Assembly (NCBI RefSeq): GCF_001921215.1
Contig: NZ_MSIF01000001.1
Coordinates: 248,001-312,000 of the forward strand
Source: Actinophytocola xinjiangensis
GTDB taxonomy: Bacteria; Actinomycetota; Actinomycetes; Mycobacteriales; Pseudonocardiaceae
Reading direction: 5' to 3'
Length of the DNA: 64,000 bases
Below the pieces are notes generated by a model. It was not told where the DNA came from. It did no database searches and was given only the letters and a program-made list of their open reading frames with translations. Below, in pieces: positions 11,747-46,982 of this stretch. The position numbers and the translations under genes are program-made. Each line of letters opens with the position of its first letter. Position 1 is the first letter of the stretch.

Positions 11747-12619
11747 CTACCGCCCGGAGAGCCGCTGCACGCCCAGCAGCAGCGCCGAGTGGTCGAGGTC
11801 GCCGTCGCCCTGGGCGCGGGCGGCGGCCATCAGCTGGGCGACCACCGCCCCCAGCGGGATCACCACGCCGGCCGCGCGCGCCGAGTCGACCACGATCCCC
11901 AGGTCCTTGTGGTGCAGGTCGATCCGGAAGCCGGGGGCGAACTCGCGGGCCAGCATCCCGGCGGCCTTGCGGTCCAGGACCGCGCTGCCGGCCAGGCCGC
12001 CGGCGAGCACCTCGACCGCCGGGCCGGACTCGACGCCGTGCGCGTCCAGGAACGTCAGCGCCTCGGCCACCAGCTCGATCGTGCCGGCGACGATGAGCTG
12101 GTTGGCCGCCTTCACCGTCTGGCCGGACCCGGCGGGGCCGACGTGCACGACCGTCGCGCCGAGCACCTCCAGCAGCGGGCGTGCGGCCTCGACGTCGGCC
12201 CGCTCACCGCCGACCATGATCGACAGCGTGCCGTCGATCGCGCCCCGCTCACCGCCGCTGACCGGCGCGTCCAGCGGACGCAGCCCGGCCTCGGTGGCCC
12301 GCTCGGCGACCGTGCGCGCGGTGGCCGGGGCGATGGTGCTCATGTCGATCAGCAGGGCGCCCCCGCCGGCCGAGGCCAGCACGCCGTCCTCGCCGAGGAC
12401 CACCGAGGTCACGTCGGGGGAGTCCGGCAGCATCGTGACGATCACCTCGGCGCCCCGGACGGCCTCGGCGATCGAGCCGGCCGCCGTGCCGCCGGCCTCG
12501 GCCAGGCTCGCCCGTCTGGCCGCGCCGCGGTTGTAGCCGACGACGTCGTGGCCGGCCCGCACGAGGTTTCCGGCCATGGGCAGGCCCATGATCCCGAGTC
12601 CGATGAACGCGATCCGCAT
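11747..12619 (-). CDS. NAD(P)-dependent beta-hydroxyacid dehydrogenase (GlxR-like)
   Basis: A 290-residue enzyme of the 3-hydroxyisobutyrate / tartronate-semialdehyde reductase family. The N-terminal Rossmann fold shows IAFIGLGIMGLPMAGNL; the substrate loop is DAPVSGG (about residues 117-123) and the catalytic lysine lies in GQTVKAANQ (Lys about 168). The ATG at 12619 starts right at the family N-terminus; a GTG at 12628 is possible. Closest functional guess is reduction of a 2-hydroxy-3-oxo acid, but family members cannot be separated by eye. A GntR/FCD regulator is divergent across a 212-nt gap and is the likely regulator. Confidence 0.82.
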   Translation of the reverse strand: MRIAFIGLGIMGLPMAGNLVRAGHDVVGYNRGAARRASLAEAGGTAAGSIAEAVRGAEVIVTMLPDSPDVTSVVLGEDGVLASAGGGALLIDMSTIAPATARTVAERATEAGLRPLDAPVSGGERGAIDGTLSIMVGGERADVEAARPLLEVLGATVVHVGPAGSGQTVKAANQLIVAGTIELVAEALTFLDAHGVESGPAVEVLAGGLAGSAVLDRKAAGMLAREFAPGFRIDLHHKDLGIVVDSARAAGVVIPLGAVVAQLMAAARAQGDGDLDHSALLLGVQRLSGR

Positions 12620-12672
12620 ACCGGGCACGGTACCGTCCGCACGTCAACCGCCGTACCAGCGTTGTTTTTACC

Positions 12673-12689
12673 GATCATTATCAGTGATC
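12673..12689. promoter_or_regulatory. Inverted repeat in GlxR-like / GntR divergent promoter region
   Basis: Arms GATCA (12673-12677) and TGATC (12685-12689) are separated by 7 nt in the locally AT-rich gap between the divergent GlxR-like gene and the FCD-GntR gene. The position and symmetry fit an operator of the GntR regulator, although the arms are short. Confidence 0.4.
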
Positions 12690-12831
12690 CGAAATGGACA
12701 ATAGCGTTTCGATCACGGAGATGAGCATGATTTAGCGGAAACATTGACGGGTCGCGAGAATCAGCCAAGAATGTCCCCCTGTCGGCGGACGTGGGTAACC
12801 GCCCAGCCGCACGAGATGGGGAGAATGTGTC

Positions 12832-13503
12832 ATGGCGTCCGCGAGGACCAGCCGTTCTGTCGCACGAATGCCGGAACCGGTAAACAAGATCACGCCCTAC
12901 CAACGCCTGAAGGACGCCATCCGGTCGGGAGATCTTCAACCGGGGCAGCAACTGGTCGAGTCGGCGTTGGCCGAATGGTGCGAGGTGAGCCGGACTCCGA
13001 TCAGGGAGGCGTTGTCCAAGCTCCAGCACGACGGTCTGGTCGAGCGCAGCGACCGGGGGTTGGTGGTCCGCGAACGCGGACCGGAAGAGGTCCTCGACAT
13101 CTACGAGACCAGGATCGCGCTGGAGGGCACCGCCGCCAGGCTCGCCGCCGAGCGCCGCTCCGTGCACGACCTGATGCTGCTGCGGCGGGCGCTGACCCGG
13201 CTGGAACTGGTGACCGACGGTGACGTCGACGGGATGGTCACCACCAACCGCCAGTTCCACACCGCGGTCTGGCGGGCCAGCCGCAACGTGTCGCTGATCG
13301 ACCTGCTGGAGCGCCTCGACCTGCACCTGGCCCGCTACCCGGCGACCACCCTGGCCAGCCCCGGGCGCTGGGAGCGGTCCAACGCGCAGCACCGGGCCCT
13401 GGTCGAGGCGATCGAGGCGCGGGCCGGCGACACCGCAGAGAAGATCGCCCTCGACCACTTCGCCGAGGCCAGGGACATCCGGCTGGCGCTCTACGACGTG
13501 TGA
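12832..13503 (+). CDS. GntR-family regulator (FCD/FadR subfamily)
   Basis: A 223-residue regulator. The winged helix spans about residues 20-85 (YQRLKDAIRSGDLQPGQQL, SRTPIREALSKLQHDGLVER). The FCD ligand domain follows, with the metal/ligand residues typical of the family: FHTAVWRAS near residue 140 and the HRALVEAIEA histidine near residue 190. The ATG at 12832 is preceded by GGGGAG. FCD regulators usually sense organic acids, which fits the divergent hydroxyacid dehydrogenase gene. The next gene is convergent. Confidence 0.87.
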   Translation: MASARTSRSVARMPEPVNKITPYQRLKDAIRSGDLQPGQQLVESALAEWCEVSRTPIREALSKLQHDGLVERSDRGLVVRERGPEEVLDIYETRIALEGTAARLAAERRSVHDLMLLRRALTRLELVTDGDVDGMVTTNRQFHTAVWRASRNVSLIDLLERLDLHLARYPATTLASPGRWERSNAQHRALVEAIEARAGDTAEKIALDHFAEARDIRLALYDV

Positions 13504-34952: not shown

Positions 34953-35990
34953 ATGCGCATGACTCGTCTGTTTCTCGTGGTGTCCGTGGCCGTCCTCGGA
35001 CTGGTCGGGTTCGGTCCCGGCGTGGCGGGGGCCTGCGCGTGCGGCGCGGTCATCACCGACCAGCGGCTGACCGACGTCCAGGAGACCGCGCTGGTCGAAC
35101 TCGTCGACGGGACCGAGGCGGTGACGCTCAACATCGGCGCCGCCATCGAGACCGACGACGCCGCGTTCGTCATGCCGGTCCCCGCGCGGGCCCGGTTCGA
35201 GCTGGCCGACGGCGCGGTGTTCGCCGAACTGGACGAGCTGACCGCGCCCCGCATCGAGTACAAGGACGTGGTGATCGACGGGGACGGTGCCGGCGCCGCG
35301 CCCCCGGACAAGGGCGTCACGATCGTCGACCAGGTCGAGGTCGGGCCCTACGAGGTCGCCCAGCTCGCCGGCGCCGACTCGACCTCGGTCGCGGACTGGT
35401 TGACCCACAACGACTTCCAGCTCTCCGACGAACTCGGCAAGGCACTCACGCCCTACCTGGCCGAGGGCTGGCTGGTGCTGGCCGTGCGGCTGACCGCCCA
35501 GGACACGTCCTTCGCCGACGGCCTGCCGTCCATGCGGATCACCTTCGCCACCGACCGCCCGGTGTACCCGATGCGCCTGTCGGCGACCGCCACCAGCGCC
35601 CAGCCGCTGCGGCTCTACGTCCTGGCCGACCACCGGATGGACGTCACCAACCCGGCGCCGGAGTTCGCCCCGGCCGAACTCACCTACGCCGGCTGGGTCG
35701 AACCCGCCGACCTCACCGACCACCCCGTGCTGGCCGCCCTCGTCGACCAGCGCCGCTTCCTCACCCGCTACGACGCGCGGTTCCGCCCCGACGCCATCAC
35801 CGACGACATCGCCTTCACCCGCGCCGCGGGCGACCAGACCCACCGCGCGGTCGTCGTCCAGCGCCGCTTCGTCGAGGGCACCTCGGTCGAGGCGGTCCTG
35901 GTCATCGGCGGCGCCTCGGCCCTGCTGGCCGGCGCGGTCGGCGGCGGCGTCTGGTACCTGCGCGGCCGCCGCCGCACCCGGCCGGCCTAG
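34953..35990 (+). CDS. DUF2330 membrane-anchored secreted protein
   Basis: A 345-residue protein with an N-terminal signal peptide and a C-terminal membrane helix (AVLVIGGASALLAGAVGGGV) followed by Arg-rich residues. DUF2330 features include the CACG motif just after the signal peptide (residues about 27-30), the VMPVPARA segment and the L..W...N.F.L...L repeat region. The ATG at 34953 has weak TAGGG upstream; an in-frame ATG at 34908 would add MTNTERNRNGRHRRA, giving a Tat-like basic start. Function unknown; probably an exposed wall or surface protein. It overlaps the convergent SIS gene by 4 nt. Confidence 0.8.
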   Translation: MRMTRLFLVVSVAVLGLVGFGPGVAGACACGAVITDQRLTDVQETALVELVDGTEAVTLNIGAAIETDDAAFVMPVPARARFELADGAVFAELDELTAPRIEYKDVVIDGDGAGAAPPDKGVTIVDQVEVGPYEVAQLAGADSTSVADWLTHNDFQLSDELGKALTPYLAEGWLVLAVRLTAQDTSFADGLPSMRITFATDRPVYPMRLSATATSAQPLRLYVLADHRMDVTNPAPEFAPAELTYAGWVEPADLTDHPVLAALVDQRRFLTRYDARFRPDAITDDIAFTRAAGDQTHRAVVVQRRFVEGTSVEAVLVIGGASALLAGAVGGGVWYLRGRRRTRPA

Positions 35991-36736
35991 GGCTCGATCG
36001 GACGGACGCGGGCACCGTAACGGTCGGTGAGGGTCTGGTTGTGGGCGTCGCCGGCCGCGAGGTTGGCCGAGACGTAGACCGGGACGTCCTGGCCCATCTC
36101 CAGCAGGTGGCGGCAGGTCAGCTCGGTGATCACCTGGGCGATGAGCACCCCGGTCAGCGACGACACCGCGCCGATACGCACCCCCTGACCGACCTCGATC
36201 GCCGCGTCGCCCGGCGGGGCCAGGTTGTCGATCACCACGTCGGCCAGGTCGGCCAGGTGCGCCCCGCCGGATCGGCGTGCGTCGGTGGACCTGGTGTGCG
36301 CCAACGAGGTCACCGCGATCAGCCGGTGCCCCCTCGCACGCACCAGGTGCGCCATCTCGACGATGGCGGCGTTGAGGCCGGAGTTGGACACGATGAGGAA
36401 CAGGTCGCCCGGCGCCACCCCGCCGAGGTCGTAGACCCGCTCGGCGAGGCCGGACACGCGCTCGTACTTGGGATCCAGGATCGCGGCCGGGTCCTCGTCG
36501 CCGAACATCACCAGGTCCTTGACCGCCAGCATGCTGACCGGGGCCAGCCCCCCGGCCCGCGCCGCCAGCTCCAGGGTGACGATGCGGGAGTGACCGGTGC
36601 CGAAGGCCTGCAGGACCCCGCCGCCGGCGACGCACTCCGCCACCATCGCCGCCGCCGCGCGCATCGCCGGCAGCTGGGTGTCGACCAGACGGCGGACCAG
36701 GCCGTCGGCCATCGACGCGTACTCGGACTCGATCAC
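35987..36736 (-). CDS. SIS-domain phosphosugar-binding protein
   Basis: A 249-residue sugar-isomerase-fold protein, last gene of the six-gene operon. Phosphosugar-binding signatures are FGTGHSRIV (about 45-53) and IVSNSGLNAAIVEM (about 113-126). Such proteins isomerise or bind phosphorylated sugars, or open 1,6-anhydro or ether bonds as in MurQ; the exact reaction is unknown. The GTG start overlaps the stop of the ceramidase-fold gene (GTGA), so the two are translationally coupled. Its position after a BadF-type kinase suggests it handles that kinase's sugar-phosphate product. Confidence 0.85.
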   Translation of the reverse strand: MIESEYASMADGLVRRLVDTQLPAMRAAAAMVAECVAGGGVLQAFGTGHSRIVTLELAARAGGLAPVSMLAVKDLVMFGDEDPAAILDPKYERVSGLAERVYDLGGVAPGDLFLIVSNSGLNAAIVEMAHLVRARGHRLIAVTSLAHTRSTDARRSGGAHLADLADVVIDNLAPPGDAAIEVGQGVRIGAVSSLTGVLIAQVITELTCRHLLEMGQDVPVYVSANLAAGDAHNQTLTDRYGARVRPIEP

Positions 36737-37980
36737 CAGCGCTCCTCGTTGTCTCGCACGGAGTTGTCTCGCCGGGAGTTGTCCCGGACGGACCCGACCG
36801 CCGCCACCGCCGCGTCCACGACCAGCTCACCGCTGCCCGCGCTGACCGGACTGACCAGGGTCTCGTAGCTCGGCGGCGTGTCCACTGTGGGCAGATAGCC
36901 CAGGTAACCGTTGGCGTAGCCCAGAACCACCACGTCCTGCCCGGTGCGTTCGCGGATCCGCTCGCCGAGCTCCAGGAACAGCTCGCCGGGGATCGCGACG
37001 ATCACCAGACCGGCCAGGCCCACCGCGGCCACCTCGATCTCGTAGGTGTCGGGCCGCCCCTTTGCCGCCAGGTCCCGCGCGATCCGCTGGCCCTGCTCGA
37101 ACACCTCGCGGACCCGGGCGTCGGTCAGCGCCGAGGCCGGCGGGGTCGCCCCGGCCGCCGCGTCCACCTCCGACCGGGGTTTGGCCGCCAGACGCAGCGA
37201 CCGGGACACCGGGGGAGTGACCCCGCCCCGCCGGGCCGGCGGCGGCGCGTCGACGCCCAGGCCGGCGGCGACCAGCGCCGCGAGCCGGTCGATCTCGGCG
37301 GCGCTGCGGCCCTGGCGGGTGTGGCGGGTGCTGATGTCGCCGCTGGCGCCGGTCGCGGCGACCACCCAACGCCCCGGGGCGCCCAGCGCCCGGCGGATAC
37401 CGCCGTTGAGGTCGGCGCTGACGTCGCTGTTGCCGGCCGGCAGCACCGTCGGGTGCACCGGGGACACGGTCAGCACACCGGTCGGTGTCTGGCCGTCGGC
37501 CACCACGACGGCGTCCACCGGGATGTCGGTGGCGGCGGCGTCACCGGCGTTGCGCCGCCCGGCCAGGTCCGCCAGCCACGCCCGGGTGTGGGCCACGGTG
37601 GCGTCCCGCTCGGCGGCGACCGCCGCCTTGGCCGAGAGCACGGCGGCCTCCAGCAGCCGGTCGCCGACCCCGGCCGGGGTCGGGCTGCCGCCGGGGGCGC
37701 AGCCGGCCTCCGGGCTGGCGTGGGTGTGGGTGGCCGCCACCCAGCACGAGTCGACCCCCAGTCCCGCCACGGCCGCCCGGATCCGGTCGACGACGTCGGC
37801 GTTGACACAGATCAGGTCCGCCACGACGAGCGCGAAGCGGTGGGCGTGGTCGGCGAACGTGACCACGTGGACCTCCAACGGGTCCAGGACGTCGCGAACA
37901 CCCTGCGAACGGTCGGCGTAGCCACCCATCCGCTCACCGGGGAGCACCTCGAGGCGCCGTGTCCCGTGGCCGACTCTCAC
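36733..37980 (-). CDS. Cytoplasmic neutral/alkaline ceramidase-fold protein
   Basis: A 415-residue protein matching the N-terminal domain of neutral ceramidases: GYADRSQGVRD near the start, VVADLICVNADVV, and the zinc-ligand stretch ATHTHASPEAG (about residues 83-93), then GELFLELG and GYANGYLGYLPT near the end. No signal peptide is present, so it acts in the cytoplasm, unlike true secreted ceramidases. In a sugar-uptake operon a deacylase or hydrolase acting on an N-acyl sugar-like substrate is more likely than ceramide. The C-terminus carries three 5-residue repeats (VRDNS, RRDNS, VRDNE). Both ends overlap neighbours by GTGA. Confidence 0.75.
   Translation of the reverse strand: MRVGHGTRRLEVLPGERMGGYADRSQGVRDVLDPLEVHVVTFADHAHRFALVVADLICVNADVVDRIRAAVAGLGVDSCWVAATHTHASPEAGCAPGGSPTPAGVGDRLLEAAVLSAKAAVAAERDATVAHTRAWLADLAGRRNAGDAAATDIPVDAVVVADGQTPTGVLTVSPVHPTVLPAGNSDVSADLNGGIRRALGAPGRWVVAATGASGDISTRHTRQGRSAAEIDRLAALVAAGLGVDAPPPARRGGVTPPVSRSLRLAAKPRSEVDAAAGATPPASALTDARVREVFEQGQRIARDLAAKGRPDTYEIEVAAVGLAGLVIVAIPGELFLELGERIRERTGQDVVVLGYANGYLGYLPTVDTPPSYETLVSPVSAGSGELVVDAAVAAVGSVRDNSRRDNSVRDNEERW
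36746..36790. repeat. Three 15-bp repeats encoding the C-terminal pentapeptide repeats of the ceramidase-fold gene
   Basis: Three consecutive 15-nt units (36746-36760, 36761-36775, 36776-36790) share GTTGTC and encode V/R-R-D-N-S/E. Unit length keeps the frame. It looks like a recent in-frame slippage expansion at the protein's C-terminus. Confidence 0.7.
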
Positions 37981-38897
37981 GCATTGTCACCTTTCTCTGC
38001 GAGGTTCGTGTACGGCGGGGCGCCGTGGACCAGCGTCAGGCCGCCCTCCAGCGGGGACCCCAGGGGCTCGACCAGCTCCAGGCCGCGCGCCGCGAGCTGG
38101 TCGGCCAGCTCCTGGCGCAGCGCCGCGTTGGAGGAGACCAGCCGGCCCGAGTGCGCCACCCGGCGGCCGGCGTCGGGCCGGCGGGTCACCGCCGCCCTGG
38201 CCAGGTCCGCGAGGTCCGCGGCGGCCGCGTGGCACAGGGCCGTCGCGACCGGGTCGCGGCCGGCCGCGCCGAGGACCTGGCGGGCGAAGCCGGCGACCAG
38301 CGCCACCACCCCCGGGTCGCGGTAGAACCGTTGCAGGCTCGCCAGATCCGTGCCGCCGACGGTCTGCTCGAACCGCCCGGTGAGCACCGTGTCCCGGCCG
38401 ACGCCGTCCAGCGCGGCCGACGCGGCGCGCAGGCCGGCCAGACCGATCGCGTACGCGCTGCCCCGGTCGCCGAGCAGGGGCCCCCAGCCGTCGAGCGTGG
38501 TGTGCTCGCCGCCTTCGCCGACGGCCAGGACGTTGGTGCCGGTGCCCACGCACAGCACGGTCCCCGGTCCGTTCAGCGCCCCGGCATGGGCCAGGTACAC
38601 GTCCGTGACGACCAGGGCCGGGCCGCCGAACAGCTCGGCCAGCCGCCGGGTCAGCTGCCGGCGCAGCGCGGGGTCACCGGGCACACCGGTCAGGCCGGCG
38701 ACCACTCCGGCCACCGTGTCCGGCAGTTCGACGGTGGCCGCCGCCTGCCGCACGCCCTCGACGATCCGGTCGACGCCGTCCTCGCCGGGGAGGTAGAGCA
38801 TGCCGGGGCCGGTGCCGGTCTGCCGGTGCTCGCCGGTGGCCACCAGCAACCGCAGTGCCGACTTGCCGCCGTCGATGCTGACCAGCGTGCCGGTCAC
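37977..38897 (-). CDS. BadF/BadG-type sugar kinase (N-acetylglucosamine kinase-like)
   Basis: A 306-residue ASKHA-fold kinase. The phosphate-1 motif is VSIDGGKSALRLLVATG at the N-terminus, phosphate-2 is VLCVGTGTNVLAVG (about 110-123), and a conserved GWGPLLGDRGSAYAIG (about 133-148) is the BadF signature shared with N-acetylglucosamine kinases. It likely phosphorylates the sugar imported by the upstream ABC transporter. The GTG start overlaps the permease stop (GTGA) and the stop overlaps the next start. Confidence 0.85.
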   Translation of the reverse strand: MTGTLVSIDGGKSALRLLVATGEHRQTGTGPGMLYLPGEDGVDRIVEGVRQAAATVELPDTVAGVVAGLTGVPGDPALRRQLTRRLAELFGGPALVVTDVYLAHAGALNGPGTVLCVGTGTNVLAVGEGGEHTTLDGWGPLLGDRGSAYAIGLAGLRAASAALDGVGRDTVLTGRFEQTVGGTDLASLQRFYRDPGVVALVAGFARQVLGAAGRDPVATALCHAAAADLADLARAAVTRRPDAGRRVAHSGRLVSSNAALRQELADQLAARGLELVEPLGSPLEGGLTLVHGAPPYTNLAEKGDNA

Positions 38898-39793
38898 TTC
38901 GACATCCCCGCGGTCAGGCCGCTGATGATGTGCTTGGTCGCCAGGGCGAACACCACCGCCAGCGGCACCAGGGCGATCACCAGCCCGGCGAACAGTGTCG
39001 CCCGGTCGGCGGCGTACTCGCCGAAGAACCGGGTCAGTCCGACCGGGACGGTGTACTTGTCGTCGCTGCGCATGAGGACCAGTGGGTAGAAGAAGTCGTT
39101 CCAGGTCGGGGCGAACTGGAACACCGTGGCCACCGCCAGCGCCGGGCGCATGACCGGCAGGACGACCGACACGAACATCCGGCCCTCGTCGCAGCCGTCC
39201 AGCCGCGCGGCCTCCTCCAGCTCGTCGGGCATGCCGCGCATGAAACCCATGATCACGAACACCGAGAACGGGATGCCGCTGGCCGCGTAGAGCAGCACCA
39301 GGCCGATCCGGTTGTCGATCAGGCCCCAGGACTGGAACATGTAGAACACCGGCAGCAGCCCCAGCTTCGCCGGGATCATCAGTCCGGAGATGAACAACGC
39401 CGCCAGCAGTGCCCGGCCCCGGAACCGCCAGCGGGACAACGCGTAGGCCGCCATCGCGGACACCGTGACGCACAGTGCCACCGAGGCCACCGTGATGGTC
39501 AACGAGTTCACGAAGTAGGTGGACAGCGACGCGGTTTCCCACGCCCGTGCGTAGTTGTCGAAGTTCAGCGAGTCCGGCAGGCCGACCGGCTCGCGCAGGA
39601 TGTCGGCGTTGGGCCGGAACGACCCGATCAGCACCAGCACCAGCGGACCGAACGCCAGCGCCGCGTAGACCCACAGCAGCGCCTGGACGCCCAGGCGGCT
39701 CAGCCCGGACCCGTGGCGCCCGGCCGCGCGACGTGGCCGCTTGCTCGGGGCCGGCGACGCCGCGCGGGCCTTCGGGGGCAGCAGCGCCGTCAT
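38894..39793 (-). CDS. Sugar ABC transporter permease (MalG type)
   Basis: A 299-residue inner-membrane permease with six helices. The ATPase-coupling EAA loop reads LEEAARLDGCDEGRMFVSVV followed by LPVMRPALA (about residues 190-220). The N-terminus is a basic cytoplasmic segment. It starts 1 nt after the stop of the partner permease. No ATPase gene is in the operon, so an MsiK-like shared ATPase elsewhere is likely, as in Streptomyces sugar transporters. Confidence 0.9.
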   Translation of the reverse strand: MTALLPPKARAASPAPSKRPRRAAGRHGSGLSRLGVQALLWVYAALAFGPLVLVLIGSFRPNADILREPVGLPDSLNFDNYARAWETASLSTYFVNSLTITVASVALCVTVSAMAAYALSRWRFRGRALLAALFISGLMIPAKLGLLPVFYMFQSWGLIDNRIGLVLLYAASGIPFSVFVIMGFMRGMPDELEEAARLDGCDEGRMFVSVVLPVMRPALAVATVFQFAPTWNDFFYPLVLMRSDDKYTVPVGLTRFFGEYAADRATLFAGLVIALVPLAVVFALATKHIISGLTAGMSK

Positions 39794-39794
39794 G

Positions 39795-40751
39795 TCAGCT
39801 CACCTCCCGGCGCCGGAGCACCCGTTCGAGGGCGATGGACACACCGAAGATGACGAGGAAGATCATCATGGCCAGCGCGGAGGACTCGCCGATCGCGTTG
39901 GCGCCGCCCTCGAAGGCCGTCCGGTAGTACAGCAGCCCCAGCACGTCCATCGCGCCGCCGGGACCGCCGTCCGAGCCGCCGAGCGCGTAGACCAGGTCGA
40001 AGATGTTGAAGCAGCCGATGAACGTCAGCACCGTGATCACGCCGACGGCGGGCATCAGCAGGGGGAACCGCACGCTCCAGAACGCCCGCGCGGCCGAGGC
40101 ACCGTCCAACGAGGCCGCCTCCTCCAGCTCCCTCGGGATGCCGCCCAGCGCGGCGAGGAAGATCAGCATCGGGCCGCCGATCCACTGCCAGGCGTTGACC
40201 AGGATCAGCACCGGCAGCGCCGTGTCCGGTTCACCCAGCCACGGCCGGGCCCACGACTCCAGCCCGACCGACTCCAGGATGTGGTTGATCGGCCCGAACG
40301 ACGGGCTCAACAGCAGCGACCAGATGTAGCCGACGATCAGCGGGCTGATCAGGTACGGCAGCGAGAAGACCGCCTGGAAGAACCGCTTGAACCTCGGGTT
40401 GCGGTAGAGCATCACCGCCAGGCCAAGGCCGATGGTGTTCTGGATGGCCATCGTGCCGACGAAGAACAGCACGTTGTGCCACAGGGCCACCGGGATCTGT
40501 TCGCCCAGCGGATACCGGGTGAGGACCTCCTGGTAGTTGCCCAGACCGGTGAACTCGGCCTGCTTGGTGCCCTCCCACCGGAAGAACCCGTAGTAGAACG
40601 CGGTCACCAGCGGGACGACGATCAGCAGGCCGTAGAGCACCAGCGCCGGCAGGGTGAACCCGGCGATCCAGCCGAGGGGGGTGCGGTCGGGGCGGTAACG
40701 CCGACGCACCCCCCTCGCCCGTCGTGGGGTTACGGCTTCGGCTTGAACCAC
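39795..40751 (-). CDS. Sugar ABC transporter permease (MalF type)
   Basis: A 318-residue, six-helix permease. The EAA motif is ELEEAASLDGASAARAFW with FPLLMPAVG (about 215-245). The GTG at 40751 overlaps the end of the binding-protein gene by 22 nt; a GTG at 40709 is an alternative that removes 14 residues. It pairs with the following MalG-type permease to form the channel. Its lipoprotein partner is encoded directly upstream. Confidence 0.9.
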   Translation of the reverse strand: MVQAEAVTPRRARGVRRRYRPDRTPLGWIAGFTLPALVLYGLLIVVPLVTAFYYGFFRWEGTKQAEFTGLGNYQEVLTRYPLGEQIPVALWHNVLFFVGTMAIQNTIGLGLAVMLYRNPRFKRFFQAVFSLPYLISPLIVGYIWSLLLSPSFGPINHILESVGLESWARPWLGEPDTALPVLILVNAWQWIGGPMLIFLAALGGIPRELEEAASLDGASAARAFWSVRFPLLMPAVGVITVLTFIGCFNIFDLVYALGGSDGGPGGAMDVLGLLYYRTAFEGGANAIGESSALAMMIFLVIFGVSIALERVLRRREVS

Positions 40752-42025
40752 TGGTCAACGCCCTGCTGAATGTGGGTGGCGGCCTCCTGGGCCGACGACT
40801 GGCCGAGCACGTACTTCGACAGACCCTCCGAGGCGAGGTCCCAGGCCGTCGGCTCGCCGCTGGAGAAGTAGGCGTAGGTGACGTACGGGCTGGGGTTGGC
40901 GGTGTAGGCCTCCAGCGCCTCGGCCAGCAGCTCGTCGGTCGGTACGACCTCGGGCACGGCGCTGATCTGGCGCAGCTGCTCGGTGAACGCCTGGCCGAAC
41001 TCGGGCGAGGCCATCCAGTTCACCAGCTTCAGCGCGGCCTCCTTGTCCGGGGACTTGGCCGAGACGCCGTACGAGCCGTCGACGTAGCCGGGGACCAGCG
41101 TCTCGGTGGCGGCGGCGCCCGGTGGCGGCGGGACGTTGAAGATGCCCAGCTCCAGCTCGGGGTTGGCCTGGCTGAACACCGCCAGCTCCCACACCCCGCC
41201 GGGGAAGGCGGCGGCCTGGCCGGAGGTGAACAGCGCCTGCGCGTCGGCGTAGTTCACGCCCTGGAAGTTGGCCTCCCAGTACTGGCTGGTGTTCTTCCAC
41301 GTCGTGAGCGAGTCGACCCACGGCTTGTCGGTGAACGACGCCTGGCCGGCGAGCATCCTGTCCAGGTAGGCGTGGCCGCCGTAGGTGGTGGCGCCGAAGA
41401 TCTCCTGCTGGATGGGCAGCATCCAGGTGTCGGAGATCGTCGCCGACAGCGGGGTGACGTCGGCGCCCTTGAGCGTGGCGAACGCGGCGTTGAGGTCGTC
41501 CCAGGTCTCGGGCTCCTCGATGCCGTGCTCGGCGAAGATCTTCTTGTTGTAGATGACGTGCAGCGTCTGCAGCGCGAACGGCACGCCGTAGACCTTGCCG
41601 TCCTCGACGCCGCGCGCGCCGTCGAGGGTGGCCTCGGGGAACTCGGCCAGCGCGTCGACCTCGTCGTCGAGCGCGACGACGCTGTCCGAGGCGACCAGCG
41701 GTTGGAGCAGGCCGTAGGAACGCAGCTGCGCGACGTCCGGACCGTTCGCGTCGGACAGTCCGGTGCGCAGGATGGTGTCGTACTCGTCGGCCTTGTAGGG
41801 CACGTACTTGACGGTGACGCCCGGGTTGGCGTCCTCGTAGGTCGCGAAGATCTTCTTGTAGGCGGCGGCGTCCTCCTGCCGCCACCCCCAGACCTCGAGG
41901 GTGACGTCGCCGCCAGCGCCCGAGCCACTGTCCGAGCCGCCGTCCGACGCACCGGGGCTGCACGCCCCGATGGCCAGCGCCAGCGTCCCGAGGGCGGCGA
42001 TCAAGCCGCTTCGCCTGCCGATCAT
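40730..42025 (-). CDS. Sugar ABC transporter substrate-binding lipoprotein
   Basis: A 431-residue extracellular solute-binding protein of family 1. The signal peptide ends in a lipobox AIGAC (Cys22), followed by a Gly/Ser-rich linker (DGGSDSGSGAGG). The mature start TLEVWGWRQED is typical. It binds an oligo- or amino sugar and delivers it to the two permeases. The ATG has AGGAGA upstream. A canonical -35/-10 promoter lies 38-66 nt upstream with the regulator site inside it. The arrangement, a GntR gene divergent from binding protein and permeases, resembles the DasR-DasABC locus of Streptomyces. Confidence 0.9.
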   Translation of the reverse strand: MIGRRSGLIAALGTLALAIGACSPGASDGGSDSGSGAGGDVTLEVWGWRQEDAAAYKKIFATYEDANPGVTVKYVPYKADEYDTILRTGLSDANGPDVAQLRSYGLLQPLVASDSVVALDDEVDALAEFPEATLDGARGVEDGKVYGVPFALQTLHVIYNKKIFAEHGIEEPETWDDLNAAFATLKGADVTPLSATISDTWMLPIQQEIFGATTYGGHAYLDRMLAGQASFTDKPWVDSLTTWKNTSQYWEANFQGVNYADAQALFTSGQAAAFPGGVWELAVFSQANPELELGIFNVPPPPGAAATETLVPGYVDGSYGVSAKSPDKEAALKLVNWMASPEFGQAFTEQLRQISAVPEVVPTDELLAEALEAYTANPSPYVTYAYFSSGEPTAWDLASEGLSKYVLGQSSAQEAATHIQQGVDQWFKPKP

Positions 42026-42062
42026 GTGGGTCTCCTGGTCAGAGGGATGACACTGACCGGGT

Positions 42063-42091
42063 ACGCTAATACTGGTCTATACCGCTGTCAA
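42063..42091 (-). promoter_or_regulatory. Sigma-70-type promoter of the ABC operon with dre-like operator in the spacer
   Basis: On the minus strand a perfect TTGACA (42086-42091) is separated by 17 nt from TAGCGT (42063-42068). Between and overlapping them lies ACTGGTCTATACCGCT (42071-42086), which matches the DasR dre consensus (ASTGGTCTAGACCAST) at 14 of 16 positions. A regulator bound here would cover both promoter elements and block RNA polymerase. The site is also 83 nt upstream of the GntR gene itself. Confidence 0.75.
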
Positions 42092-42168
42092 CGACCCGGC
42101 CGATCGGACGGGCGGCCGGCACCGGTTCGTAGAATGACCTCATCCAGGTCGGTAAGGGGGACACCGCA

Positions 42169-42936
42169 GTGCCAAGGCCGCGTCACGAGGCCGGCGACGT
42201 CGCGCCGGACGTGTTCACCAAGGAGCGCGACCGGCCCAAGGGCCAGCACATCAAGGACGTGCTGGCCACGCTGGTGCTGGAGTCGCCGGACGGTTCGCTG
42301 CTGCCCTCCGAACGGGTGCTCGCCGAGCGGTTCGGGGTGGCCAGGATGACCGTGCGGGGCGCGGTCGGCGACCTGGAGGACCGGGGCCTGGTGCGCCGGG
42401 TCGCCGGCCGGGGGACCTTCGTCCAGCACCCGACGCTGACCCACTCCGAGATCTTCACCTCGTTCAGCGAGGACATGCGCAACCGGGGCATGTCACCGGG
42501 TTCGCGCAGCTACCGGGCCCGGACCAGGCCGGCCACCCGCGAGGTCGCCCAGCGCCTGGGCATCGAGGCGTCGGCCCCGGTGCACTCCATCGAGCGGGTC
42601 CGCACCGCCGACGGCATCCCGATGGCGCTGGAGCGCACCAACCTCTCCGCCCAGCGCTACCCCACCCTGCTCACCGTGATGGGCCGTGACGAGTCGCTCT
42701 ACGAGGTGCTCGGCGCGACCTTCGGCGTGCGGCTGGAGTCGGCCGAGCAGAAGGTGGCGATCGCGCGGCTGAGCCCGGCCGAGGCCAAGCGGCTGGAGGT
42801 GCCCGAGTACGACCCGGCGTTCCTGATCGAGCGGGTGTCGGTGGACAACATGGGCAACGTCGTCGAGTTCGGACGCTCGCTCTACCGGGGCGACCGGTAC
42901 GCCATCCAGATGCACGTCAGCCGGCCGGCCGAGTAG
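42169..42936 (+). CDS. GntR/HutC-family regulator (DasR/NagR-like)
   Basis: A 255-residue regulator. The winged helix (about 25-85) contains LLPSERVLAERFGVARMTVR and RGLVRRVAGRGTFV. The UTRA effector domain (about 95-245) has SFSEDMRNRGMSPGSR and the IERVRTADGIPMALERT segment typical of DasR/NagR proteins that sense amino-sugar phosphates. Length equals that of DasR. GTG start. It is divergent from the sugar ABC operon, and dre-like sites lie on both sides of the gene, before the ABC operon and before the secreted hydrolase gene. Confidence 0.88.
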   Translation: MPRPRHEAGDVAPDVFTKERDRPKGQHIKDVLATLVLESPDGSLLPSERVLAERFGVARMTVRGAVGDLEDRGLVRRVAGRGTFVQHPTLTHSEIFTSFSEDMRNRGMSPGSRSYRARTRPATREVAQRLGIEASAPVHSIERVRTADGIPMALERTNLSAQRYPTLLTVMGRDESLYEVLGATFGVRLESAEQKVAIARLSPAEAKRLEVPEYDPAFLIERVSVDNMGNVVEFGRSLYRGDRYAIQMHVSRPAE

Positions 42937-43003
42937 CCGGTCAGCTCCCACGGCCGGCGCGGCCAGCGGTGTCCGAACACCGCCCGTGCCGGCTTTTCCT
43001 CCC

Positions 43004-43058
43004 TTGTCAGTGCTCCCACCGGGTGTTAGCGTCCGGCGAAATACCGGTCTAGACAGGA
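43004..43058 (+). promoter_or_regulatory. Promoter of the secreted hydrolase operon with downstream dre-like operator
   Basis: TTGTCA (43004-43009) and TAGCGT (43027-43032) are spaced 17 nt, with the same -10 as the ABC operon promoter. The dre-like ACCGGTCTAGACAGGA at 43043-43058 follows near the expected start of transcription and matches the dre consensus at 12 of 16 positions, including the nonamer GGTCTAGAC. Binding there would block early elongation. The gene start (ATG 43080) has GAGGAG upstream. Confidence 0.7.
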
Positions 43059-43079
43059 ATCATCACCCTGAGGAGCGCG

Positions 43080-44135
43080 ATGAGGATCAAGCTGGTGGCC
43101 CTGGCCGCCGCCGCGTGCGCGGCGCTGGCCGTGGTGGCGGCGGCGCCGACCGTGGCCGCGGCACCCGAGTCCGACGCGGGAACGGCGTCGCGACCGCAGG
43201 AACGCGACGTGCGCTTCCTGGACTTCAACTTCGCCGGCAACGGGTTCAACGGCGGCGACACCGGCGCGCCGGTGACCGACACCGCCAACCGGATCGCCGC
43301 CGAGCGCGCGGAGATCATCGGTCTCAACGAGATGTGCTACACCCAGTGGGTCGCGCTGCGCGACGCGCTGAAGGCCAAGCCCGGCTACGCCGGCCTGAGC
43401 GACCAGGTCGTGGTCACCAACTACGACATCCCCAACTGCTACGACCCGGTCGTCAACCCCGACGGCTGGTACGTCATGGGACTGATGAGCAAGTACGACT
43501 CCGAGCGGGTCATGTTCGGCGACACCCCCTACCTCGACCTCGGCTACCACTACCGCGAGCGCTACCGCAAGCTGGTCTGCGGCGACGTGGACATCCCGCG
43601 CGCCCGCGAGGTCCGCGCCTGCGTCACCCACACCGAGGTCCCGCTGCCGCTGGTCAACGAGACGTCCTTCCCGAACGACCCGGACATCGCCCAGGACCCG
43701 AACTACGGCCGCTCGATCAACTACGCGCAGGCCGAAGTCATCGCCGAGGCCATCACCCCGATGGCCAAGCGGATGCCCGTCGCGCTGATGGGCGACCTCA
43801 ACGAACTGCCCTTCCTGCCCTCGCTGGACTTCTTCTACAGCAAGTGCGGCGGCAAGGGCGTGTTCAACGAGGTCGACAGCCGCGACCCGCGCTGGCCCGT
43901 CATCCGGCACTTCAACCTGGGCACCGAGAAGTGTGGACACCGGCAGGGCGAGTGGACCATGGGCCGGGAGGGCCAGCCCGACATCTACGACCAGCCCTAC
44001 TCCAGCAACCGACGCATCGACTACATCTTCGTCGACCAGCGGCACTTCACGGTCGGCCCGGAGTCCGGTTGGGTGATCACCACGCCCTTCTCCGACCACC
44101 GGATCGCGGTCGGTGACGTCACCCTGAAGCGCTGA
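43080..44135 (+). CDS. Secreted EEP-fold phosphohydrolase
   Basis: A 351-residue exported protein (signal peptide about 1-28). It has the DNase I-like pattern: FLDFNFAGNGFNGG (first metal Asn), IIGLNEMCYTQW (Glu), MGDLNELPF (Asp-Asn), RRIDYIFVD and the terminal SDHRIAVGDV (catalytic His). Four or more Cys (EMCYTQ, NCYDPV, VCGD, RACVTH, SKCGG, EKCGH) suggest disulfides. The loop insertions DFNFAGNGFNGG and NINGG-type sequences are shared with the third gene of this locus, so both form one uncommon EEP subfamily. The substrate could be a phosphoester lipid, an inositol phosphate or nucleic acid. Confidence 0.83.
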   Translation: MRIKLVALAAAACAALAVVAAAPTVAAAPESDAGTASRPQERDVRFLDFNFAGNGFNGGDTGAPVTDTANRIAAERAEIIGLNEMCYTQWVALRDALKAKPGYAGLSDQVVVTNYDIPNCYDPVVNPDGWYVMGLMSKYDSERVMFGDTPYLDLGYHYRERYRKLVCGDVDIPRAREVRACVTHTEVPLPLVNETSFPNDPDIAQDPNYGRSINYAQAEVIAEAITPMAKRMPVALMGDLNELPFLPSLDFFYSKCGGKGVFNEVDSRDPRWPVIRHFNLGTEKCGHRQGEWTMGREGQPDIYDQPYSSNRRIDYIFVDQRHFTVGPESGWVITTPFSDHRIAVGDVTLKR

Positions 44136-44146
44136 GGGAGTCCGAC

Positions 44147-45952
44147 ATGCGCCACAGGAGAACACTGCTCGCGCTCGCGAGCCTCACCGCACTGGTCCTC
44201 CCGCTGGCCGTGGCCTCACCGGCCAGTGCCGGCGGCGGGTCGCGGGAGGAGTTCCGCGTCCTGCCCTACCTGCAGAGCCCCAGCGAGTCGGGGATCAGGG
44301 TCACCTGGTTCACCGAGGACGGTGAGCCGGGCACACTGACCGTGCGCGGCCCCGGTGTCCAGGGCAGCCGCACCTACCACGTCGGCGGGACGACCCAGCC
44401 GGAACTGGCCTACACCGACGCCGAGCGCGCCGAGCAGATCCCCGGCCTCGACCAGGGATCATGGCTGCGCGGCCCGCACAACTACAAGCACACCGAGCTG
44501 GTCGGTGGCCTGCGGGCCGGTCACCGCTACCAGTACACCGTCCGGCAGGGACGGTCCACCGTGTCCGGTCGGTTCGCCACCGCCCCGAGCGCGCGGAACT
44601 GGAACCACCTGCGGCTGATCGCCATGTCGGACTCGGAGACTGAGCCCAGGGGGCGGGTGCAGAAACGCGAGTGGGCGCCGGGGGCCGGTGCCGACGGGCG
44701 GCCCTCGGCGGCGTCCGGGTCGGCCTGGGACCAGGTGCACGGAACGACGACGCTGTCCGGCTCGCAGGTGCTGCGCTACCCGCTGACCGAGGACGAGGGC
44801 CTGCGCCGCAACCTCGCGGCCGTCCAACAGCGACAGCCCGACGCGGTGCTGTTCACCGGCGACCTGGTCCAGGGCGGCGGGTACCAGCCGGGGTGGGACG
44901 AGTTCTTCCGCAACACCGCCGGGGTCAACGGGAACCTGCTGTCGTCGGTGCCGATCCTGCCGGCGTTCGGGAACTGGGAGAGCTTCGGCGCGCTCAACGG
45001 CGGCTACGGCACCCCCGAGGACCGGACACCGGTCGTGCGGTCCAGGGCCAAGTTCCACGCGTACTTCGACAGCCCCGGCAACGGGACCGAGCGGTACCAG
45101 GACAACTACTACCGGGTGGACTACGGCCCGGTGACGATCCTGACCCTGGACAGCAACAACGGCGAGCCGGACGACGCGGCGGCGAACTACGCGCCGGAGG
45201 AGAAGCTGACCGGGCGCGAGTACACCGGCCCGGGCACCGACACGCAGGAGAACTTCACCCGCGAGCAGTACGAGCGTGCCGGCGGCGACGACATCGCCGC
45301 GTACAACCCGGGCAGCGTGCAGTGGAACTGGGTGGAGCGCCAGTTGGCCGACGCGCGCGCCAGGGGACAGGCCGTGCTGGTGCAGTTCCACCACGTGCCC
45401 TACAGCTCCGGTGAGCACGGGCTGCCGATGAACCACGCGCTGACCTCCGGGCAGGGCGGCACGCCGATGCGCGTGTACAGCCCGCTGTTCGAGCGCTACG
45501 GGGTCGCGGCGGTGATCTCCGGGCACAGCGAGATGTTCGAGCGCAGCTTCGTCGACTCGGACGGCGACGGTGTCGGCGTGCACTACTACGACGTCGGCGT
45601 GTCCGGCGACGGTCTGCGTGGTGTGCGCCGCGAGGGGTCGACGCTGGACAGCGCGCCGCTGGAGTACAACCAGTACAGCCGGTGGACCGCTGACCAGAGC
45701 GAGCCCGAGCGGTGGACCAGCGGGCGCGACGGCGAGCCACGGCTGGTCGGCGGTGGCAAGCACTACGGCCACCTGGAGATCAACGTGGATCGCGTGCGCG
45801 GGGACCGGAACCGGACCGCGCGGATCACGCTGACACCGGTGCACCTGTTCCCGGTCCTTGACCAGGACCTGGAGGTGGTGCGGACCGAACGTCGTACCTA
45901 CGACGACGAGGTCGTGATCGACATCGGCCGGCGGGGAACACCCGTCCGGTGA
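44147..45952 (+). CDS. Secreted purple-acid-phosphatase-like metallophosphoesterase
   Basis: A 601-residue exported protein (signal peptide about 1-27). An N-terminal fibronectin-like domain (about 35-145, FRVLPYLQSPSESGIRVTWF) precedes a calcineurin-like phosphoesterase domain. Metal-ligand motifs are visible but altered: MSDSETE in place of the usual D.H/GD entry, FTGDLVQGG, GNWESF instead of GNHE, QFHHVPY, and SGHSEMFER instead of GHxH. The Trp and Glu replacements suggest an unusual metal centre. It begins 11 nt after the EEP gene stop, so both are in one operon, and ends in a strong terminator. Confidence 0.82.
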   Translation: MRHRRTLLALASLTALVLPLAVASPASAGGGSREEFRVLPYLQSPSESGIRVTWFTEDGEPGTLTVRGPGVQGSRTYHVGGTTQPELAYTDAERAEQIPGLDQGSWLRGPHNYKHTELVGGLRAGHRYQYTVRQGRSTVSGRFATAPSARNWNHLRLIAMSDSETEPRGRVQKREWAPGAGADGRPSAASGSAWDQVHGTTTLSGSQVLRYPLTEDEGLRRNLAAVQQRQPDAVLFTGDLVQGGGYQPGWDEFFRNTAGVNGNLLSSVPILPAFGNWESFGALNGGYGTPEDRTPVVRSRAKFHAYFDSPGNGTERYQDNYYRVDYGPVTILTLDSNNGEPDDAAANYAPEEKLTGREYTGPGTDTQENFTREQYERAGGDDIAAYNPGSVQWNWVERQLADARARGQAVLVQFHHVPYSSGEHGLPMNHALTSGQGGTPMRVYSPLFERYGVAAVISGHSEMFERSFVDSDGDGVGVHYYDVGVSGDGLRGVRREGSTLDSAPLEYNQYSRWTADQSEPERWTSGRDGEPRLVGGGKHYGHLEINVDRVRGDRNRTARITLTPVHLFPVLDQDLEVVRTERRTYDDEVVIDIGRRGTPVR

Positions 45953-45957
45953 CGGCG

Positions 45958-45993
45958 ACGGGCCGGGCGGCGACACCCGCCCGGCCCGTTTTT
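45958..45993 (+). terminator. Intrinsic terminator after the metallophosphoesterase gene
   Basis: A perfect 13-bp GC stem (ACGGGCCGGGCGG at 45958-45970 with its complement at 45977-45989) closes a 6-nt loop CGACAC and runs into TTTTT. It lies 6 nt after the phosphoesterase stop and only 33 nt before the next gene's ATG, so that gene is either expressed by read-through or from a promoter overlapping the hairpin. Confidence 0.88.
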
Positions 45994-46022
45994 CCTGTGA
46001 GGGCAAGGAAAGGAGTGACCCC

Positions 46023-46982
46023 ATGAGGTGGCGGGCAGCACTGGGCGCGATCCTGGCGGCCTCGGCGTTCCTGGTGCCGGCGGCGACCGCCGCGCAGGCC
46101 GAGCAGGTCCGCACGTTCACGGTGTGGGACTGGAACATCTCCGGCAACCTGATCAACGGCGGCTCAACGACCAACGGGATCGTGCGCGAGTCGGTGACCT
46201 CGATCCTGGAGCAGGACGCGGACTTCGCGTCGTTCAACGAGATCTGCTGGGGGCAGTACAAGGCGATCCAGTCGAGCCTGAGCGCCAACGGCTGGCCGGC
46301 CTCGGCGGACTTCTCCCGGTTCGCGGCGACCCGCGACCCACACCCGGAGATCTGCGCCGGGAACGAGACGTTCGGCCAGGCGCTGTTCAGCCGGGAGGCG
46401 CTGGGCACCTCCCGGCAGTACGAGCTTCCCTGGGACGGCAAGGCGGGCACCCGCAAGCTGCTGTGCGCCCCGCTGCGGGACACCCCCGCGATGACGTTCT
46501 GCACCGTGCACATCACGACCCAGACCCTGGTCCCGCCGGACTCGCCGCCGGGCGCCCCCGACGCGAAAACCCAGCAGCTCAACCACATGCTCGGCCTGCT
46601 CGACGGTTTCCACGCCGCCGGTGAGGCGTACCTGATCGCCGGCGACTTCAACGCCCAGCCCGACTACGGCCGCCTCAACGGCTACTACTCGCCGTCGGCG
46701 AACACCGTCAACAACCCCAACAACACCGGTGCCCACCGCGAACTCGACGACGCCGACCCCGCCCACTGCCCCGGCTACGGCGAATGGACCGCCGACGACC
46801 CCCCGACCACCATTCCTCCGTGCGGCGGCTACGCCAAGGTCGACATGATCATGGCGCGGGAGTCCCGGATCGTCGGCTCCTACACCGCCGACGCCCTGCC
46901 CATCCCCACGACGTGCACCGGCGTCCCCCAGTGCGCCGACCACCAGGCCATCGTCGGCACGGTCACCCTCCGCGTCCCCTGA
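46023..46982 (+). CDS. Second secreted EEP-fold phosphohydrolase of the locus
   Basis: A 319-residue exported protein (signal peptide about 1-27). EEP motifs: TVWDWNISGNLINGG (metal Asn), FASFNEICWGQY (Glu), VHITTQ (His), IAGDFNAQPD (Asp-Asn) and the terminal CADHQAIVG (catalytic His). Six or more cysteines suggest disulfide bonding. It shares the N...GG insertion after the first motif with the EEP protein at 43080-44135. GGAG lies upstream of the ATG. A terminator precedes it closely, so its level may be set by read-through of the dre-controlled operon. Confidence 0.82.
   Translation: MRWRAALGAILAASAFLVPAATAAQAEQVRTFTVWDWNISGNLINGGSTTNGIVRESVTSILEQDADFASFNEICWGQYKAIQSSLSANGWPASADFSRFAATRDPHPEICAGNETFGQALFSREALGTSRQYELPWDGKAGTRKLLCAPLRDTPAMTFCTVHITTQTLVPPDSPPGAPDAKTQQLNHMLGLLDGFHAAGEAYLIAGDFNAQPDYGRLNGYYSPSANTVNNPNNTGAHRELDDADPAHCPGYGEWTADDPPTTIPPCGGYAKVDMIMARESRIVGSYTADALPIPTTCTGVPQCADHQAIVGTVTLRVP

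Follow-up and report, generated by a model that had tools for sequence, protein, structure and literature searches.

Introduction

In the regulons of N-acetylglucosamine (GlcNAc) utilization controlled by DasR and NagR, dre-type operators are placed at the promoters of importers and secreted hydrolases, and in the Nag pathway (NagK, NagA and NagB) a kinase and a sugar-phosphate enzyme share an operon with a sugar importer. Here we describe a locus within a 64,000-nucleotide stretch of the Actinophytocola xinjiangensis genome (contig NZ_MSIF01000001.1, positions 248,001 to 312,000; hereafter the window) that resembles both systems and departs from each. It has the regulator family, DNA- and effector-contact residues and operator placement of the DasR/NagR regulons, whereas its regulator is a paralogue (36% identical) that exists beside a true DasR, its linked target set is small, and its secreted enzymes are an endonuclease/exonuclease/phosphatase-fold (EEP) protein, EEP1, and a metallophosphoesterase, MPE. 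Its importer operon encodes a BadF-family kinase and a SIS-family sugar-phosphate protein, but a ceramidase-fold hydrolase (CER) stands where the Nag pathway has the amidohydrolase NagA, and the SIS protein where NagB would act. Taken together, the evidence presented below makes it probable, if not strongly so, that the locus is a dedicated N-acylhexosamine acquisition-and-catabolism regulon under a local DasR/NagR-type repressor.

Two of the locus proteins have characterized relatives with which they agree in part. CER has the catalytic fold of neutral ceramidase (PDB 2zws and 4wgk) and keeps its active-site columns for histidine, glutamate, tyrosine and serine, but is a single-domain protein of 415 residues without a signal peptide (by eye), is encoded in a sugar operon and scores below the Pfam cut-off. 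The SIS protein is a distant relative, in the SIS_2 family, of NagS (SCO4393), the GlcNAc-6-phosphate (GlcNAc-6-P) dehydratase; it has equivalents of N228 and of the essential residues H53, R64, E94 and D179 (by eye on the alignment; residues as given in PMC12680351), while S91 is replaced by P and G227 by A, and its gene neighbours are different. In Streptomyces, NagS is reported to act first, with NagA then deacetylating the product. Among the entries listed by a literature search, with most subscription journals outside its coverage, no title or abstract opening described such a ceramidase/amino-sugar cluster.

Results

Two linked units carry conserved operators

The genes for the sugar-binding protein (SBP), the permeases PermF and PermG, BadF, CER and SIS follow one another on the minus strand with intergenic gaps of -22, 1, -4, -4 and -4 nucleotides (nt), and because the gaps are so short these genes most likely constitute a single transcription unit (Table 1). 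The GntR regulator gene diverges from this operon and is followed on the plus strand by EEP1 and MPE, which are 11 nt apart. Open reading frames and Pfam matches bear out the gene set listed in the initial annotation, although the interval given there (36733-46982) begins so late that nearly all of the SIS gene falls outside it. The same annotation counted a second secreted EEP-fold protein, EEP2, as a member; we have removed it from the regulon, since a terminator-like hairpin intervenes and EEP2 is missing from the conserved gene set. No NCBIfam match at E 0.001 was obtained for CER, EEP1, MPE or EEP2, and signal peptides were assigned by eye throughout.

Both promoters are as initially described, TTGACA-17-TAGCGT ahead of SBP and TTGTCA-17-TAGCGT ahead of EEP1, each accompanied by a dre-like operator. 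When the GntR-EEP1 intergenic region of the window was aligned with those of three syntenic loci, 18 of the 19 columns of AAATACYGGTCTAGACAGG were invariant, against a median of 6 for the 95 windows, making the EEP1 operator the best-conserved stretch of this region. The promoter-operator window likewise ranked first in the SBP-GntR region aligned over seven loci (13 of 19 columns invariant; median of 62 windows, 8). Here the operator keeps its position between -35 and -10, while the letters of the -10 vary, so that what is conserved at the importer promoter is the promoter-operator layout and not the letters TAGCGT. The EEP1 operator has G-5 replaced by T in one half, the same asymmetry as the native Bacillus dre sites described in PMC4333415, in which G-5 is often T in one half-site.

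A pattern-limited scan of 84,980 species genomes with the ceramidase alignment yielded 76 stretches, 13 of them confirmed relatives (in one, L046, the CER match is limited to residues 211-364). Although these loci were fetched by CER alone, BadF, CER and SIS occur together in 11/13, GntR in 12/13 and ATP-binding cassette (ABC) importer genes in 9/13. The loci of Jiangella endophytica, Phytoactinopolyspora and J. muralis contain MPE, EEP1, GntR, SBP, two permeases, BadF, CER and SIS in unchanged order, with both operators; the co-occurrence of genes and sites elsewhere, which had been put forward as a check on a single regulon spanning both units, is thus seen in three genomes of two other genera. 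Their proteins are 57-87% identical to those of the window, where the housekeeping protein GatB, compared between J. anatolica and A. xinjiangensis, is 69% identical; with this one control, the values are suggestive of a horizontal origin for the best-conserved genes. (The Phytoactinopolyspora locus, L038, has a further EEP paralogue 3' of its SIS gene, at 12183-13139.)

CER and EEP1 are both rare. At E 1e-40, 3 of the 150 family genomes sampled and 1 of the 396 phylum genomes contain CER, while EEP1 occurs in 1 of the 150 (E 1e-30) and 1 of the 396 (E 1e-25); A. xinjiangensis is counted in each sample and is the sole genome with EEP1. Among eight related genomes EEP1 was found in three at E 1e-15, as a single copy and always at the CER locus. 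As two such rare genes adjoin in four genomes, their adjacency is not a matter of chance. The loci were gathered through CER, and EEP1 without CER was sought in the 150- and 396-genome samples and the eight related genomes.

Within the window, GGTCTAGAC was found once against 0.15 expected (12 of 100 shuffles reach one), the SBP 16-mer with up to three mismatches once against 0.10 (9 of 100), and a loose combined 16-mer at 12 places against 7.0, which is not significant (10 of 100 shuffles reach 12). The strong evidence for these predicted sites is their conservation in other genera, not the window statistics. We combined the window sites and related sites in a consensus, ACYGGTMTAKACMRGW, and scanned the 9.5 Mb A. 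xinjiangensis genome with it, using an IUPAC pattern in place of the position matrix first suggested; both local sites were recovered. The sole exact match is the EEP1 site; allowing one mismatch brings in the SBP site and three further places (L071, L072 and L073), which were dropped as they showed no link to the regulon. With up to two mismatches there were 73 strand hits, where the reversed control gave 47, and looser matches are therefore mostly noise. In the eight related genomes, up to one mismatch gave 20 places: 10 at the CER locus, two with related genes (J. muralis C1 and J. anatolica C122), two ahead of a large secreted protease-like gene (L065 and L069), not counted as regulon, and six without evident link, five of which were inspected (all except L067). 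Strand hits numbered 4 against 0 in the reversed control for J. anatolica and 10 against 4 for J. muralis. The sites of Micromonospora MW-13 (L036) are absent from the 20 places, being beyond one mismatch; a match at 1341 in this locus is probably due to chance, and the site in register with those of the other two Micromonospora loci (L037 and L041) is at 1510.

Table 1. Genes, promoter elements and operators of the locus, in window coordinates.
Feature	Position	Strand	Evidence
SIS_2 sugar-phosphate protein (SIS)	35987..36736	-	Pfam SIS_2 1.3e-36; PDB 3cvj 4.8e-35; 9eol (SCO4393) 1.5e-32
Ceramidase-fold hydrolase (CER), proposed N-acyl-aminosugar(-phosphate) deacylase	36733..37980	-	Pfam PF04734 1.6e-7, below cut-off; 2zws by profile and AlphaFold2 model
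BadF-family sugar kinase	37977..38897	-	Pfam 3.5e-13; PDB hexokinase 2e2n, N-acetylmuramic acid (MurNAc)/GlcNAc kinase 8zo3, NAGK
ABC sugar permease PermG	38894..39793	-	Pfam BPD_transp_1
ABC sugar permease PermF	39795..40751	-	Pfam BPD_transp_1
Sugar-binding protein (SBP), lipobox-type signal (by eye)	40730..42025	-	Pfam SBP_bac_1 2.5e-38
SBP operon -10, TAGCGT	42063..42068	-	sequence
dre-like operator ACTGGTCTATACCGCT inside SBP promoter spacer	42071..42086	.	between -35 and -10 in 7/7 aligned loci
SBP operon -35, TTGACA, 17-nt spacer	42086..42091	-	sequence
GntR gene candidate -10, TAGAAT	42130..42135	+	by eye; reverse-strand columns CAT..TACG invariant in 7/7
GntR/HutC (UTRA) regulator, DasR/NagR type	42169..42936	+	PDB DasR 4zs8 2.2e-37; NagR (YvoA) 2.3e-35
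EEP1 unit -35, TTGTCA	43004..43009	+	sequence
EEP1 unit -10, TAGCGT, 17-nt spacer	43027..43032	+	sequence
dre-like operator ACCGGTCTAGACAGGA (core GGTCTAGAC)	43043..43058	+	10 nt past EEP1 -10; footprint in 4/4 loci
EEP1, endonuclease/exonuclease/phosphatase fold, secreted (by eye)	43080..44135	+	Pfam PF03372 (Exo_endo_phos) 5.1e-9
MPE, calcineurin-like metallophosphoesterase, secreted (by eye)	44147..45952	+	Pfam PF00149 (Metallophos) 7.3e-10
Terminator-like hairpin, 3' of EEP1-MPE unit	45957..45990	+	1 found vs 0.6 expected in shuffles of 41900-46100
EEP2, second secreted EEP-fold protein, 29% to EEP1	46023..46982	+	Pfam Exo_endo_phos; past hairpin

The local regulator is distinct from the DasR of the genome

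The regulator has GntR DNA-binding and UTRA domains (PF00392 and PF07702), and its closest PDB entries are DasR and NagR. The base-contacting residues R38, R48 and G69 (NagR numbering) are kept, and 12 of the 15 residues with which NagR contacts GlcNAc-6-P or glucosamine-6-phosphate are identical, the others being the conservative changes T90S, I166L and A224G (contacts as given in PMC4333415). Eleven of these 15 are found in the DasR of the same genome and 9-12 in seven regulators of related loci, against 3-5 in other paralogues (five of eight further matches compared, two of which, L003 and L006, have alignment gaps). The local protein is not the DasR orthologue: a gene on contig 72, near a BadF kinase gene, matches 4zs8 at E 2.7e-95, compared with 2.2e-37 for the local regulator.

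The presence of this orthologue, together with dre-type sites beside chitinase-, lytic polysaccharide monooxygenase-, DasABC- and NagA-like genes of the genome (the first two recognized by eye), leaves some room for the view that true DasR governs one or both units, which would then be outliers of a global GlcNAc regulon, and the SBP site differs from what we take to be the dre consensus at 2 of 16 positions. We nevertheless consider this somewhat unlikely, as the sites accompany the local regulator not only in A. xinjiangensis but also in Jiangella, Phytoactinopolyspora and Micromonospora. The half-sites point the same way: on the free side of the dre-pattern scan ACC is followed by A or T in 8/8 places outside the locus, whereas local importer or core sites have C before GG in at least one half-site at 8/9 loci, a contrast that is only suggestive, since the scan pattern forced T on the other side. 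The local GntR protein, rather than true DasR, is therefore the likely binder of the predicted operators, although DasR may share them.

CER is a ceramidase-fold protein within a sugar cassette

CER reaches 30.8 bits against the Pfam profile PF04734 (Ceramidase_alk; cut-off 32.1) over residues 17-92 only. Its AlphaFold2 model matches 2zws with a Foldseek E of 5.5e-18, the sole four matches below 0.001 being ceramidase chains, and a profile of the 13 CER sequences finds 2zws at 3.9e-14. Residues H85, H87, H176, S217, E333 and Y362 are invariant in 13/13 sequences, and in the profile alignment, by eye, they correspond to H97/H99, H204, a serine, E411 and Y448 of 2zws, which we take to be the zinc ligands and the nucleophile. 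The claim of a cytoplasmic ceramidase-fold hydrolase made in the initial annotation is supported by these residues and the fold, and by the lack of a signal peptide as judged by eye. The nearest PDB relatives of its neighbour BadF are hexokinase and MurNAc/GlcNAc kinases, and no amidohydrolase (NagA) domain was detected in the 10 locus proteins scanned with Pfam at E 0.001.

As the family is named for ceramide hydrolysis, and CER is 15-17% identical to ceramidases, CER might instead hydrolyse the amide or ester bond of some other acylated compound, with the amino-sugar features belonging to the regulator and secreted enzymes only; a Labedaea cluster with a DHDPS-family aldolase and an NAD epimerase could fit other sugars. 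We judge this improbable in view of the company CER keeps: BadF and SIS accompany it in 11/13 loci, as does an ABC or phosphotransferase system (PTS) sugar importer (PTS domains were checked at one of two PTS loci), and no lipid-metabolism genes were noticed by eye beside CER in the loci read. The protein is, moreover, a single domain lacking a signal peptide by eye, and the sugar-operon setting speaks against ceramide as its substrate. A supposed tie between ceramidases and inositol clusters was discarded, because the protein concerned in PMC9430895 is SrfJ, described there as glucosylceramidase-like.

Operators of the same type precede different secreted enzymes

Residues N50, E84, D239, N241, D339 and H340 of EEP1 are invariant in five sequences and presumably represent the catalytic N, E, D-x-N and DH residues of the EEP superfamily. 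That EEP1 and MPE serve independently to scavenge phosphate or nucleic acid, as a mere neighbour of the sugar regulon, is quite improbable: these folds are common among phosphatases and nucleases, and the EEP1 model, itself of low confidence, is similar to EEP proteins of the TDP2 and nuclease types, but a dre-like operator is conserved at EEP1 in 4/4 loci, EEP1 is confined to CER loci in the genomes sampled, with none in the other 149 family and 395 phylum genomes, and not one of the window's 16 loose PHO-box-like matches (a total exceeding all 100 shuffles) is near the EEP1 promoter, so that PHO-box control was rejected.

All three Micromonospora loci contain regulator, importer, BadF, CER and SIS. 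Their genomes have no EEP1 match at E 1e-15, and within the loci there is no MPE hit; the place of EEP1 is taken in 3/3 by a secreted GH84 beta-N-acetylglucosaminidase of ~1,110 residues (PF07555; 6e-80, 1.3e-80 and 1.4e-81). Upstream of it, TTGACG is followed after 17 nt by a -10-like hexamer and then the operator, a layout like that at EEP1. The only other exact consensus match in J. muralis duplicates the EEP1 operator and precedes a GH84 gene, which is followed by a GH20 gene. These two separate placements of GH84 tie the ligand to N-acetylhexosaminides. A search of the A. xinjiangensis genome for GH84 gave no match, as did the control genomes, so that absence is not inferable.

In J. muralis a different palindrome, ACCGGACTAGTCCGGT (L087, near 4690-4720), is less distant from the start of GH84 than is the dre-like operator; the palindrome resembles a variant site of Kibdelosporangium, described below.

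CER clusters with other importers

In J. aurantiaca and J. anatolica the cluster consists of GntR, operator, BadF, CER and SIS; ABC genes are lacking from the stretch that separates GntR from BadF, and the contigs end soon past SIS. Of three motif hits in J. anatolica, one precedes genes for an ABC importer, a propeller-like protein and a secreted protein that has no Pfam match, and homologues of these adjoin the CER clusters of Labedaea and of a same-genus genome. The Kibdelosporangium CER and GntR genes adjoin a mannose-family PTS, with the variant site ~50 nt ahead of the PTS genes, an arrangement that fits CER acting on a sugar phosphate.

The Pfam-less secreted family (L088, 6440-7474; Labedaea L021, 14491-15480) accompanies CER clusters and stands directly behind a dre-like operator in J. 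anatolica. The aldolase and epimerase genes of the Labedaea cluster (L021, 6209-7324 and 2031-3056) hint at a different pathway end. The ceramidase gene of the same-genus genome appears to be split over two reading frames (L022, 7570-8807), by a frameshift or a sequencing error.

Discussion

The features described above can be accommodated in a single scheme. Under amino-sugar scarcity, the local regulator would occupy the operator in the importer-promoter spacer and the operator just past the EEP1 -10, acting as a repressor. Secreted EEP1, as a phosphodiesterase-like enzyme, and MPE, as a phosphomonoesterase-like one, might release the sugar from a glycan or conjugate that carries phosphate; it would enter the cell through the ABC importer and be phosphorylated by BadF. 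Most simply, CER would then remove the N-acyl group, the job of NagA in the usual pathway, and SIS would isomerise, deaminate or dehydrate the sugar phosphate, in either order. An aminosugar phosphate could be the inducer that releases the repressor. That the ligand is of the amino-sugar type, as suggested initially, is supported by the effector residues, by GH84 and GH84-GH20 genes behind operators, and by the relatives of the kinase and SIS. The accompanying suggestion that it is imported in phosphorylated form is not required, because a kinase is encoded and a phosphatase-like protein is secreted.

More tentatively, and as a possibility rather than an expectation, we propose that CER has taken over from NagA, to which it is not orthologous, the cytoplasmic deacylation of N-acylhexosamines or their 6-phosphates. 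BadF, CER and SIS would form a portable cassette, controlled by a DasR-like switch and combined with interchangeable acquisition modules. Such a module could be a secreted phosphodiesterase-phosphatase pair that opens sugar-phosphate glycans, a hexosaminidase of family GH84, a pair of secreted proteins accompanied by an ABC importer of their own, or, with CER and the switch only, a mannose-family PTS. If so, small cytoplasmic ceramidase-fold proteins would acquire a role, as an independently evolved deacylase in a well-known sugar pathway; a catabolic core would have been rewired to new foods by placing the same operator ahead of a new secreted enzyme; and phosphate-linked glycans opened by an EEP-phosphatase pair would be a possible hidden source of amino sugars.

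Several observations weigh against the proposal of an N-acylhexosamine regulon. Its support is computational, drawn from sequence and predicted structure. Each site is, singly, just moderately improbable by chance within the window, and across the eight related genomes the one-mismatch pattern gave 31 strand hits against 16 in the reversed control, which makes isolated matches far from the locus weak. No dre-like match was found in the Labedaea and Thermomicrobiales loci, and that of Virgisporangium is 2 kb beyond its GntR gene. The GH84 genes start ~170-320 nt past the Micromonospora operators, that of L036 having two core mismatches, and ~190 nt past the operator in J. muralis. Sequence searches of the PDB found no relative of EEP1 or MPE, and the EEP1 model is poor (predicted local distance difference test score, pLDDT, 51), for which reason a subfamily assignment from it was rejected and its Foldseek list used for the fold only. 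NagA- and DasABC-like genes accompanied by dre sites are also present in the genome, as is a BadF kinase gene close to DasR, so that a second GlcNAc route needs a reason. Finally, NagS homologues at 25.7-35.7% identity are reported as inactive or nearly so on GlcNAc-6-P (PMC12680351); we have for this reason not named the SIS protein NagS, and a different amino sugar may be the substrate. The same report delimits NagS as a Streptomycetaceae clade of at least 58.7% identity encoded beside dmdR1, and the SIS protein, whose gene adjoins CER, falls outside it.

Further palindromes and dre-like matches

Two additional sites were recorded in the course of the scans. In the A. xinjiangensis genome (C6:92233-92248, L072), the palindrome ACTGGTCAATACCAGT is located ~80 nt upstream of another GntR reading frame, and by eye phage-like genes adjoin it. 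The dre-like AACGGTATAGACCAGT is kept in two Jiangella genomes (L089, near 6869, and L090, near 6473), ~40 nt before the gene of a very large secreted protein that exceeds 2,100 residues in the stretch fetched and appears protease-like by eye.

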